Assembly: GCA_038873195.1 (NCBI GenBank)
Contig: JAVZEV010000001.1
Location: forward strand, 586,490 to 650,489
Origin: Candidatus Bathyarchaeia archaeon
GTDB taxonomy: Archaea; Thermoproteota; Bathyarchaeia; Bathyarchaeales; Bathycorpusculaceae
Direction: 5' to 3'
Length of the DNA: 64,000 nt
The notes under the pieces were generated by a model. The model worked only from the letters and a program-made list of their open reading frames with translations, had not been told where the DNA came from and searched no databases. Each line of letters begins with the position of its first letter. Position 1 is the first letter of the stretch. Position numbers and translations under genes: made by a program. Positions 2,714 through 6,858 of the stretch are shown here, piece after piece.

Positions 2714-2899
2714 ATGGCAGAAGCTTGCGGTTGGGTATTCGTAGGTCACATTCCCTTGCTTTATGATAAAAGAAGAGTGGCAAGGCAGTATCAAGTGGAA
2801 ATGTGGCTTGACCTTACACAGTTAGTCAAAGAATTAGGCATCGAAAAACTAAACGAAAACAACCATAACTCACATTCAAAAACGGATTATGTTGTGTAG
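2714..2899 (+). CDS. Small hypothetical protein (61 aa)
   Basis: This short reading frame begins with ATG just after a purine-rich stretch with two GGAG elements, a good ribosome site. The protein has no motif I recognise: an N-terminal hydrophobic patch (about residues 5-17), then a basic and helical middle, then a polar Asn-rich tail. Its last 24 bases overlap the 3' end of the convergent kinase gene. It could be a real small protein or a chance frame; the strong ribosome site is the main argument for it. Confidence 0.35.
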   Translation: MAEACGWVFVGHIPLLYDKRRVARQYQVEMWLDLTQLVKELGIEKLNENNHNSHSKTDYVV

Positions 2900-3646
2900 A
2901 AGACCGCACGCCTCCAAAACCTTTTCAAAATTCTCATGTGCCCTATCACGTTTATAACATCTTAAAGCATCAACAATAGCCCCCTTATCCCTTACTCCAA
3001 GCTTCTTAACCACTAAACCAGCAACTTCACCACTAACAAAAAGAAACTGGCAAACCGCAGTCACATTCGACGGTCTACGACGCACACTAGCAGTTTCAAA
3101 ATCAACAATAAACGGCTTACCATCTTCCCCAACAATCACATGCTTAGGCGCATGACTTAACTCTCCATGATCTAAACCGGCCACATCTAAACGCCAACAC
3201 TGCTCCAAAATTTCACGCAAAACACGCTTCACACGCCTTTTGCTCTTACATTTCTTTAGCCATTCCGGAAACAATTCGCCATCAACAAACTGCATAACAA
3301 GAAAATTGGCGCTAACGCCCCAAAGCTTCGGTCCGACATCCACAGAATTCGCTTTCTCAAGCATTTCCGCTTCGCGTAGCATTCCCTCACGGTCAGCATC
3401 CACCCTTCGAATCTTCAAAGCCACCTTCTCTCCATTCACATAGGCTATTGTAACAATACCCACGCAACCCTTACCCAAAACAGACACGCCAAACACGTCT
3501 TTGTCCCCGCAAAACTCCACGGCAGTCACGCCTAATCTACCCAACTCTACTAAACGCTTCCTAACCTCCGCCTTACATGCTCGCGGATAACACAATATGG
3601 ACGCGTAAGGCTCTTCGCTTAGCCGTTCAACAGTCACTCTCAACAT
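2876..3646 (-). CDS. RIO/Bud32-like predicted Ser/Thr protein kinase
   Basis: The protein keeps a minimal protein-kinase core: K78 in 'VALK' as the likely ATP-binding lysine, D159 in 'LDHGEL' as the catalytic-loop aspartate with K168 nearby, and 'VDFE' (D182) as the metal-binding DFG equivalent. This pattern and the 256-residue length match archaeal predicted kinases of the COG2112 type, small RIO/Kae1-associated-like kinases. Targets are unknown. It is divergent from the EF-2 gene, with about 80 bases between them. ATG start. Confidence 0.75.
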   Translation of the reverse strand: MLRVTVERLSEEPYASILCYPRACKAEVRKRLVELGRLGVTAVEFCGDKDVFGVSVLGKGCVGIVTIAYVNGEKVALKIRRVDADREGMLREAEMLEKANSVDVGPKLWGVSANFLVMQFVDGELFPEWLKKCKSKRRVKRVLREILEQCWRLDVAGLDHGELSHAPKHVIVGEDGKPFIVDFETASVRRRPSNVTAVCQFLFVSGEVAGLVVKKLGVRDKGAIVDALRCYKRDRAHENFEKVLEACGLLHNIIRF

Positions 3647-3727: not shown

Positions 3728-5938
3728 ATGCCAAGATTCAAGCAAACCGCCGAAATACTCAAACTAATGAATAAAAAAGAAAACATACGCAACATCGGCA
3801 TAATCGCCCACATAGACCACGGAAAAACAACTCTGACAGACTCGCTACTGGCAGGAGCTGGACTATTACCGCCAAGCATAGCAGGCGAAGCCAAAGTTCT
3901 CGACTACTTAGAAGAAGAACAAAAACGCGGAATCACAATAAAAACCGCCAACATATCACTCCTACACGAAACAAAAGGAAACGCATACATCATCAACCTA
4001 ATCGACACACCCGGACACGTAGACTTCACAGGCAAAGTAACACGAGCATTACGCGCAATAGACAGCGCAATCGTCGTCGTAGACGCAGTAGAAGAAATCA
4101 TGGCTCAAACCGAAACAGTCACACGCCAAGCACTCGAAGAAAGAGTCAAACCAGTTCTTTTCATAAACAAAGTCGACAGGCTAATCAAAGAGTTAAAACT
4201 TGCTCCAGAAAAAATTCAGGAAAAATTCGCCCGCATAATCAGCAACTTCAACAATCTAATAGAAATTTACGCAGAACCAGAATTCAAGAAAAAGTGGAAA
4301 GTTAACCCTGCAAAAGAAACAGTTGCTTTTGGTTCCGCCCTTCACAAGTGGGGATTCACCCTAAACATAGCAAGACAAAAGGAAGTAAAATTCACAGACA
4401 TAGTAAACGCATACGCCAACGATAACTACGAAATACTTTCACGGTTACTTCCACTTCACCACACACTACTTCACATGATAGTCGAAAAAACGCCAAACCC
4501 AACAGAAGCCCAAAAATACAGACTGCCAAAAATTTGGAAAGGCAAAATCAACTCGGAAATAGGACAAGCAATGCTGAAATGCGACGACAAAGGACCAACA
4601 GTAATGTGCATAACAAACGCTCAAATAGACCCAAAAACAGGGCTCGTCGCAACTGGCAGAGTATTTTCAGGCTCAGTTAAAGAAGGGGACCACGTTTATC
4701 TTGTTGGCGCAAAAAAAGACTACCACATCAAGCAAGTATTCATGTATATGGGTGCCTTCAGAGAAACTGTCAACCAAATTACTGCCGGCAATATAGCCGC
4801 TTTATCAAATCTTGAACTGGCAAGAGCCGGAGAAACACTCGTCGATATTGCACATAAGGATGTCATGGTTCCTTTTGAACGTGTAAAATACGTTTCAGAA
4901 CCCGTCATGAGCATAGCTATAGAGCCAAAAAACCCTAAAGAATTGCCACACTTAGTGGAAGCAATGAACCGCCTTATCATAGAAGACCCAAACCTCGCCG
5001 CCACAATAGATAAAGAAACTGGACAATGCCTCCTCAGTGGAATGGGAGAACTCCATTTAGAAATTGCCTTGAAATTCTTAGAACAATACAGTGGAAAAAT
5101 GGAGCTAACGGCTTCCAGTCCAATAGTGACCTATAGAGAAAGCATTTTGAAACTAAGCAAAACAGTTATGGCGAAAACTTCTAACATGCGCAATAAACTA
5201 TTCGTGCAGGTAGCGCCTCTCGAAACCGAGCTTGTGGAATTGATGGAAAAGGGCGAGCTTGCAAACGGAATGGAACAGAAACGAATAGGCGATGTCGCTC
5301 AAAGAGTATTAAAGCAGTTTACTGAAGAAAATGCTAAAATTTTGGCTTTAAACGAACACGGAAACATACTCATAGATTTAACCAAAAACGTTCAAAGCAT
5401 ACAAGAAATAAAGGAAAACATCATCGCGGGATTTCACTGGGCATGCGACACTGGACCATTATGTGAAGAACCACTAAGAAACGTGAAAGTCACTCTTATA
5501 GAAACCCAAATTCACGAGGACCCAACACAACGTGAACCTACACAGATAATGCGAGCAATGAGCAGAGCAATTCTAGGTGCAGTTCTAACTGCTAAACCAG
5601 TGCTTCTCGAACCAATCTATAAAATTGAAGTATCTGTTCCAGTCGAATGGTTCGGCACCTGCACAAGCATAATAACACGAAAACGAGGAAAAATATTAGC
5701 TTCCGAAAACAAAGGCGCTTTGACAATTATTACCGGTTACATCCCAGTAGCCGAAACATTCGGCTTATCGGCAGAAATGCGCACAGCAACTTCTGGACGT
5801 GCCTTCTGGCAATGCACATTCTCTCACTGGGAACGAGTCCCAGAAAACATGGCAACGCAAATAATAAGGCAAATTCGAGAAAGAAGAGGGTTACCACTTG
5901 AAATTCCTAAACCAGAAAAATTTGTAGAGAAGGAATAA
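3728..5938 (+). CDS. fusA: Elongation factor 2 (aEF-2) lacking the diphthamide histidine
   Basis: Full-length archaeal EF-2, the GTPase that drives ribosomal translocation. GTPase motifs are intact: G1 'AHIDHGKTT' (residues 27-35), G2 around 'RGITI' (67-71), G3 'DTPGH' (93-97), G4 'NKVD' (147-150). Domains II-V follow, including the C-terminal 'GRAFWQ' and 'RERRGLP' segments. In domain IV the usual archaeal 'HEDAIHRG' tip is replaced by 'HEDPTQRE', so the diphthamide histidine position is Gln 601 (codon CAA, 5528-5530). The protein therefore cannot carry diphthamide there. It may be the only EF-2 of a diphthamide-free lineage or a second paralogue; the window cannot decide. A DNA glycosylase gene follows after 11 bases, probably co-transcribed. 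Confidence 0.93.
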   Translation: MPRFKQTAEILKLMNKKENIRNIGIIAHIDHGKTTLTDSLLAGAGLLPPSIAGEAKVLDYLEEEQKRGITIKTANISLLHETKGNAYIINLIDTPGHVDFTGKVTRALRAIDSAIVVVDAVEEIMAQTETVTRQALEERVKPVLFINKVDRLIKELKLAPEKIQEKFARIISNFNNLIEIYAEPEFKKKWKVNPAKETVAFGSALHKWGFTLNIARQKEVKFTDIVNAYANDNYEILSRLLPLHHTLLHMIVEKTPNPTEAQKYRLPKIWKGKINSEIGQAMLKCDDKGPTVMCITNAQIDPKTGLVATGRVFSGSVKEGDHVYLVGAKKDYHIKQVFMYMGAFRETVNQITAGNIAALSNLELARAGETLVDIAHKDVMVPFERVKYVSEPVMSIAIEPKNPKELPHLVEAMNRLIIEDPNLAATIDKETGQCLLSGMGELHLEIALKFLEQYSGKMELTASSPIVTYRESILKLSKTVMAKTSNMRNKLFVQVAPLETELVELMEKGELANGMEQKRIGDVAQRVLKQFTEENAKILALNEHGNILIDLTKNVQSIQEIKENIIAGFHWACDTGPLCEEPLRNVKVTLIETQIHEDPTQREPTQIMRAMSRAILGAVLTAKPVLLEPIYKIEVSVPVEWFGTCTSIITRKRGKILASENKGALTIITGYIPVAETFGLSAEMRTATSGRAFWQCTFSHWERVPENMATQIIRQIRERRGLPLEIPKPEKFVEKE

Positions 5939-5949
5939 GTGAGAACTGC

Positions 5950-6858
5950 ATGAAAATACTACTAAGTCGCTCATGCCCATTCAACCTTGACGTTACACTT
6001 TGTTGTGGTCAAGTTTTCAGATGGGATAAAATGGGCGAATGGTGGTTTGGCGTTACCGGAGAAAAAGTCTTTAAAATACGTCAGATCGGCGAGGAACTGG
6101 AATTTGAGAATGCAGATGAAGATTTTGTAAGAGAATATTTTGGGCTAAAAGATGATTTGCCAAAAATCCTTTCACAGATTAGCAAAGATAAGCATGTCAA
6201 AACTGCAATCGTGAAGTTTAAAGGTCTACGAATTCTCCGTCAAGACCCGTGGGAATGCTTGATTTCATACATTTGCGCGACATACAAGAACATTCCAGCC
6301 ATAAAGAAAATGCTTCTTAATCTTTCAAGAAAATTCGGAGAAAAAGCAGTTTTTGAAGGACGTGATTTTTACACTTTTCCGACCCCAGAAACTCTTGCAA
6401 AGGCAAACAAGCGAGAATTGCTTGAATGTGGTTTAGGTTATAGAGCAGAGTATGTTTTGGAAACTGCAAAAATGGTGCATAATGGCAATTCCTGTCTTGA
6501 GGATTTGAAGAAGGCAAATTATTTGAAGGCACGCAGCGAATTGCTTAAGCTTCCTGGAGTCGGTTCGAAAGTTGCAGATTGCGTTTCGCTTTTTTCTCTC
6601 GAAAAATTGGAAGCCTTTCCAGTTGATGTGTGGATAAAACGTATAATCTTAAAGTATTACGCGGACCATTTTGAAAGCGAATTTACCAAGAAAATCTTAG
6701 CACATAAATCGTTTGGAAAAGCGGAATATGAGAAAATGAGTTTGTTTGGACGAAAGTATTTTGGCGAATATGCGGGCTATGCTCAAGAATACTTGTATCA
6801 TTACGAAAGAATGCAGCATCAGATGATGTTGCTCTTTTTCAGTGTTTCGGCTGCTTGA
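5950..6858 (+). CDS. ogg: 8-oxoguanine DNA glycosylase/AP lyase, OGG1 type
   Basis: Base-excision repair enzyme that removes oxidised guanine and nicks the abasic site. The N-terminal 100 residues match the OGG_N/TBP-like domain ('LCCGQVFRW'). The helix-hairpin-helix-GPD core contains 'LPGVGSKVADC' with the catalytic lysine K207, followed by 'PVDVW' with the essential D226. The pair corresponds to K249 and D268 of human OGG1. Length (302 residues) is normal. It lies 11 bases behind EF-2. Its 3' end overlaps the convergent helical-protein gene by 40 bases. Confidence 0.9.
   Translation: MKILLSRSCPFNLDVTLCCGQVFRWDKMGEWWFGVTGEKVFKIRQIGEELEFENADEDFVREYFGLKDDLPKILSQISKDKHVKTAIVKFKGLRILRQDPWECLISYICATYKNIPAIKKMLLNLSRKFGEKAVFEGRDFYTFPTPETLAKANKRELLECGLGYRAEYVLETAKMVHNGNSCLEDLKKANYLKARSELLKLPGVGSKVADCVSLFSLEKLEAFPVDVWIKRIILKYYADHFESEFTKKILAHKSFGKAEYEKMSLFGRKYFGEYAGYAQEYLYHYERMQHQMMLLFFSVSAA

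Follow-up and report, generated by a model that had tools for sequence, protein, structure and literature searches.

The stretch of DNA analyzed here (the window) comprises 64,000 nucleotides from a Candidatus Bathyarchaeia archaeon and carries an EF-2 gene on the forward strand at 3728-5938. This gene is termed A and the second EF-2 copy of the same genome is termed B. The window's genome is labeled G000 and its sister species G119. The A reading frame encodes a protein of 736 amino acids, IHEDPTQREPTQ, which scored 813 bits against the TIGR00490 aEF-2 profile (cut-off 738) over residues 3-725 and is thereby identified as an aEF-2 equivalog. Pfam domains I-V are all present. The GTPase motifs were described as intact in an earlier sequence-only reading of this DNA, and all five were recovered: the G1 P-loop AHIDHGKTTL (residues 27-36; 3806-3835, + strand), RGIT, the G3 motif DTPGH (residues 93-97; 4004-4018, + strand), NKVD and GSAL. 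A structure model of A (mean pLDDT 81.8) has five domains and resembles archaeal EF-2; the model was built on 15 sequences, mostly bacterial EF-G, and so says little beyond confirming the EF-2 fold.

The diphthamide loop of A reads HEDPTQREPTQ (5513-5545, + strand). Codon 5528-5530 is CAA, which places Gln at residue 601 where the modifiable His of the domain IV loop is expected, and A consequently lacks the hallmark residue of a canonical diphthamide-bearing EF-2. The Gly that follows the Arg is replaced by Glu (G603E), and residue 605 is Thr in place of Ala. The Gln and the lost Gly had both been pointed out from the sequence alone. The tip HEDAIHRG that was then taken as the norm is not the usual one here, as relatives in the class and phylum mostly have HEDPVHRG or HEDPAHRG. 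An alignment of 212 EF-2 proteins was used to compare residue 601. Duplicates and proteins shorter than 600 amino acids (partial or split copies) were excluded, among them A or B fragments from G075, G086, G092, G094, G103, G112, G120, G146 and G154, and the A proteins from outside family f1 are a sample rather than every genome. Column 601 is His in 71/71 type B proteins and in 20/20 sampled EF-2 proteins from the rest of the phylum. It is also His in the 58/58 type A proteins with an intact tip, by construction, because these were chosen on the tip motif. An A row counts as tip-altered if its tip motif differs at all, and 6 of the 63 rows in this set still have His in column 601.

An assembly or sequencing error at 5528-5530 would have removed the substitution. 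The G119 tip, HENPTQRE, comes from a separate assembly and shares this Gln, which argues against such an error. The difference is also not confined to one codon: the window protein departs from the conserved residue at 24 of the 200 columns whose conservation is 97% or higher. The chance that an error accounts for Gln601 is negligible.

The window's assembly (1.63 Mb, 2 contigs, 98% complete) was searched for a second EF-2 and for the dph genes, a check that the sequence-only reading had proposed, and both were found. EF-2 B is located at G000:C1:1351832-1354045, is 48% identical to A and has an intact HEDPVHRG tip: VHEDPVHRGPAQ. Single matches over the cut-off were obtained for dph1/2 (PF01866), dph5 (TIGR00522) and dph6 (PF01902). 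The presence of B and the dph set means that diphthamide has not been lost from G000 and that A is one of two EF-2 copies. A paralogue and a loss of diphthamide had both been offered as explanations; the former is what the genome contains. An organism without diphthamide that relies on A as its working EF-2 would account for the His601 to Gln change, but B with its HEDPVHRG tip and the dph1/2, dph5 and dph6 genes refute this explanation in G000, and it is extremely improbable. The Korarchaeota precedent invoked for such a loss is also weaker than claimed: K. cryptofilum lacks the dph genes and its EF-2 retains the His (PMC3541065).

Across the order, PF01866 was found in 153/162 genomes and dph5 over the cut-off in 136/162. 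Multiple PF01902 (dph6-type) matches per genome occur in G171, G078, G082, G104 and G105. B was found in 81/162 genomes of the order (70 in family f1, 8 in f5, 2 in f4 and 1 in f6), and a sample of 398 genomes from elsewhere in the phylum contained no relative closer than about 53% identity. In a PDB search, the best match of B was Pyrococcus EF-2 (760 bits) and that of A was Sulfolobus EF-2 (797 bits).

Trees and gene order distinguish the native copy from the divergent one. A survey of 256 genomes of the class gave an EF-2 match in 229. The families of the class other than f1 mostly have a single EF-2, which within the same order is 60-70% identical to A. The tips examined among these single EF-2 proteins outside f1 keep HEDPVHRG, and most relatives with A as the sole EF-2 keep both domain IV histidines. 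The window protein was placed among the A proteins in a quick tree of 142 rows. In a careful tree, the EF-2 proteins of the class and phylum, including canonical A, form one clade that excludes B (99/96). The clade without B holds when three euryarchaeal sequences serve as the outgroup (100/99), and B then stands alone outside the Thermoproteota clade. In the careful tree B joined a long Aenigmatarchaeota branch, a join that the program flagged as possibly false. B is thus placed by the trees as a divergent EF-2 outside the phylum's EF-2 clade; with trees composed without Asgard, Korarchaeota and Hadarchaea sequences, it could be either foreign or a very old paralogue.

The order c2-c3-[EF-2]-c1-c4 is common to the window and the A-only genome G145. 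Cluster c3 (51 genomes) is represented in the window by a conserved gene with weak similarity to RIO/Bud32-like kinases (2876-3646, - strand), which is transcribed divergently from A with 82 bases between them. Cluster c1 (63 genomes) is the downstream neighbor, an OGG-type DNA glycosylase (5950-6858, + strand). Both are markers of the native EF-2 locus. Cluster c2 (38 genomes) is a conserved PurP-like gene with DUF1297/DUF1246 domains (1086-2519, - strand), which scores below the NCBIfam cut-offs and is often present as two tandem copies. B lies head-to-head with A, about 90-235 bases away, in G114, G115, G116, G117, G118, G122, G132, G134, G137 and G158, and one small ORF lies between A and B in G133 and in G064 (family f4). 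B has moved away from A in the window's genome. The tree and the gene order together identify A as the native, vertically inherited copy. The same grounds rule out that the window gene arose as a divergent duplicate of the canonical copy. By these comparisons it is the native gene that has been altered, and the canonical tip sits on the divergent copy, a result that goes beyond the sequence-only reading.

The EF-2 tip that reaches into the decoding center belongs to domain IV, and the G domain and domain V contain the contacts to the 50S factor site. The retention of conserved columns was calculated for each domain. The window protein keeps 92% in the G domain, 85% in domain II, 83% in domain III, 58% in domain IV (residues 471-623; 5138-5596, + strand) and 95% in domain V. 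Loop I of domain IV reads AKTSNMRNKL (5171-5200, + strand) as compared to the usual AKSPNKHNRF (mostly A/GKSPNKH.. in relatives). The second invariant histidine of the domain, His488, is therefore Arg, and TSNMR occupies the place of the SPNKH loop of a canonical translocase EF-2. His488 is kept in 58/58 intact A proteins, 71/71 B proteins and 20/20 phylum proteins. The earlier view that the protein looks functional applies to its GTPase half but not to domain IV, which is eroded.

The same pattern is seen across the tip-altered A proteins, which keep 85% of conserved columns in the G domain, 63% in domain II, 76% in domain III, 50% in domain IV and 79% in domain V. His601 and His488 are both gone in 54/63 of these proteins, and residue 601 is occupied by 13 different residues among the 63. 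Between G000 and G119, 25 of the 62 amino acid differences in A fall in domain IV, which makes up 153 of the 736 residues (p = 0.0004). These counts indicate that A is keeping the parts predicted to contact the 50S subunit and losing the part predicted to reach the decoding center.

Genomes of the order differ in how far this has gone. A is intact in G064, G114, G115, G117, G122 and G133, each of which also has B. Single tip changes occur in g17 (HGDPAHRG, HKDQVHRG), g32 (HENPVHRG), g19 (HENPTYRG) and G116. His601 is absent from A in the window's genus (HEDPTQRE in the window) and in many other genera, and the A loop is shortened in many g5 genomes. The A tips of G053, G165, G169 and G170 were read later and lie outside the 212 rows. 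In the f4 genome G053, which has B, A reads HEDPAHHG and SPNKLN, a pattern that points to a separate start of A decay in f4. Arranged in this way, the sequences suggest that where B is present A decays stepwise, from intact through single changes and the loss of both histidines to a shortened tip. A was found in 67/81 B genomes and not found in the other 14, which include the near-complete G140, G136, G123 and G096, and A therefore looks dispensable. In G146 (G146:C57, L119), the A gene falls into two reading frames that overlap, which reflects either a real break or an assembly error.

For the G000-G119 pair, A has a dN/dS ratio of 0.140 and B one of 0.011, and the dS values of the two genes are similar. 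The ratio was computable in 12 of 13 genome pairs for A (0.039-0.174) and in 11 for B (0.011-0.087), and A exceeded B in 9 of the 10 pairs with both values. B genes within the same genus are also constrained. A ratio far below 1 but above that of B indicates that A is under purifying selection that is weaker than the selection on B. Eleven A-only pairs gave values of 0.014-0.224, and because the canonical A-only pair G152-G153 has a ratio of 0.123 at comparable dS, a relaxation of the whole window gene is not proven. The clustering of changes in domain IV is a firmer sign than the whole-gene dN/dS.

These data bear on the possibility that A is a relic that has had no selected function since B took on all the work, with domain IV the first part to decay. 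The 14/81 B genomes in which A was not found, the decay of domain IV in many directions (13 residues at position 601 in 63 proteins), the higher dN/dS of A in 9/10 pairs and the split A of G146 are all consistent with a relic. On the other side, the tip-altered proteins keep DTPGH in 63/63 cases along with most of the conserved columns of the G domain (85%) and domain V (79%), the 12 computable A ratios are far below 1, and A persists in 67/81 B genomes and across whole genera that are already without the tip. A relic is an unlikely explanation on balance.

We propose instead that A is the class's ancestral EF-2, that it was demoted after B took over, and that it serves as an accessory 50S-side GTPase. 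Taken as a whole this account is reasonably probable, and its parts differ in strength. The demotion of the native copy is highly probable, and A has likely lost normal translocase function. The assignment of A to a specific 50S-side role is tentative. In the proposed mechanism, diphthamide-modified B would now be the translocase. A would still bind the 50S GTPase center and hydrolyze GTP, but would be unable to drive normal translocation. It would keep a 50S-side job that needs neither diphthamide nor the decoding-center tip. Freeing newly made 50S subunits of aIF6 would be the most likely candidate for this job; failing that, A may keep 50S subunits dormant. The job would be dispensable, because some lineages have lost A. 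The PurP-like gene is found near A in A-only genomes as well and is for this reason a lead only.

The association between B and the loss of His601 was counted over 106 full-length A rows of the order, which are related to one another. Both features are present in 49 rows, neither in 37, B only in 12 and lost His only in 8 (Fisher p 9e-11). An A tree built without domain IV contains 5 changes of His state. A phylogenetically independent-pairs test of His601 loss against B gave no support, with few events to draw on (4 pairs, 0 in the same direction). A link leading from B to the decay of A is thus not confirmed by the tree-corrected test; the demotion itself is well supported.

The 8 rows with lost His in which B was not found are G149, G173, G174, G175, G104, G105, G078 and G082. 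A domain IV search returned one significant copy only in each of these genomes and in G165, G169 and G170, whose tips are likewise without His. In 6/11 genomes of g50, a genus of the related family f5, the search recovered no EF-2 other than a tip-less A that appears to have neither domain IV histidine (G173, G174, G175, G165, G169 and G170). No EF-2 was found in 10/162 genomes of the order, which means that part of the B absences must be due to missing assembly; the g50 fraction exceeds what this rate suggests. PF01866 and dph5 are kept in five of the six genomes, all but G174. In G174 (95% complete), PF01866 was not found, dph5 was not among the listed matches, and dph6 is present. The only EF-2 found in G174 (loci L192, L361 and L366) is without both domain IV histidines. 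G174 represents either a true diphthamide loss or assembly gaps. In the f5 genomes G173 (C2), G168 (C4) and G174 (C1), dph6 lies about 1.3 kb from an A without the diphthamide site. It is doubtful that the six g50 archaea, with G174 as the extreme case, carry out translation using an EF-2 devoid of any diphthamide site. If they do, either the demoted factor was re-promoted or neither the diphthamide loop nor SPNKH is required for translocation in archaea.

The g50 genomes also bear on the possibility that A is a condition-specialized translocase that works without diphthamide. This would agree with the full five-domain length of A, with a model resembling archaeal EF-2, with the tip-less A as the sole EF-2 found in 6/11 g50 genomes, and with the viability of K. 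cryptofilum without dph genes, although its EF-2 keeps the His (PMC3541065). A working translocase is difficult to reconcile with the joint loss of both invariant histidines and of much of domain IV around them, with the shortened loop in many g5 genomes, and with the stronger constraint on B in 9/10 pairs. We consider a specialized translocase improbable and retain a demoted, 50S-side A as the working explanation.

Few archaeal and eukaryotic proteins are as strongly conserved as EF-2. The role of diphthamide and of the domain IV tip is still debated. Within a single order, this gene can be followed at one locus through naturally occurring stages that run from intact to tip-less, with B available for the main work. 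The series would show which parts of EF-2 are kept after a handover of translocation, and it bears on aIF6 release and ribosome dormancy. In effect it is an experiment of nature on the abilities of a tip-less EF-2. A caution also follows for phylogenetics: EF-2 serves as a single-copy marker in archaeal trees, but in this order the canonical tip belongs to the divergent copy.

A limited literature search found no description of the EF-2 case in this order. EF-2 paralogues without diphthamide residues are already known from archaea without dph genes, in Asgard and other lineages (PMC10307638, citing Narrowe et al. 2018). A and B resemble this arrangement in that an EF-2 without diphthamide residues stands beside a second EF-2. 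They differ in that the Asgard-type hosts are described as being without dph genes (PMC10307638), whereas G000 has dph1/2, dph5 and dph6 and the altered copy is the lineage's native gene. In Methanosarcina, aEF2 and PurH jointly dimerize 50S subunits (PMC12605026), which places an archaeal EF-2 at the 50S factor site outside translation. The gene two genes from A is a PurP-like purine gene, but PurP is not PurH. The Methanosarcina dimer as described there uses an ordinary EF-2, unlike the altered A (PMC12605026).

Sulfolobus aEF-2 produced recombinantly in E. coli, and hence without diphthamide, frees aIF6 from the 50S subunit upon GTP hydrolysis (PMC8024482). EFL1 is a eukaryotic protein with no known archaeal orthologue, and its release activity is also carried out by archaeal EF-2 (PMC8024482). 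Like A, EFL1 is an EF-2-like five-domain GTPase, and it is thought not to translocate. Unlike EFL1, A arose recently from archaeal aEF-2: archaeal EF-2 came first in the PDB search with A, and the EFL1 entry 5anb scored 271 bits compared with 797 for Sulfolobus EF-2. Bacterial and mitochondrial EF-G1/EF-G2 pairs split labor between two translocase-type GTPases, and the A/B pair is of independent origin. The simplest reading of A and B is a division of labor of this kind, in which B would translocate and A would perform a task on the 50S side.
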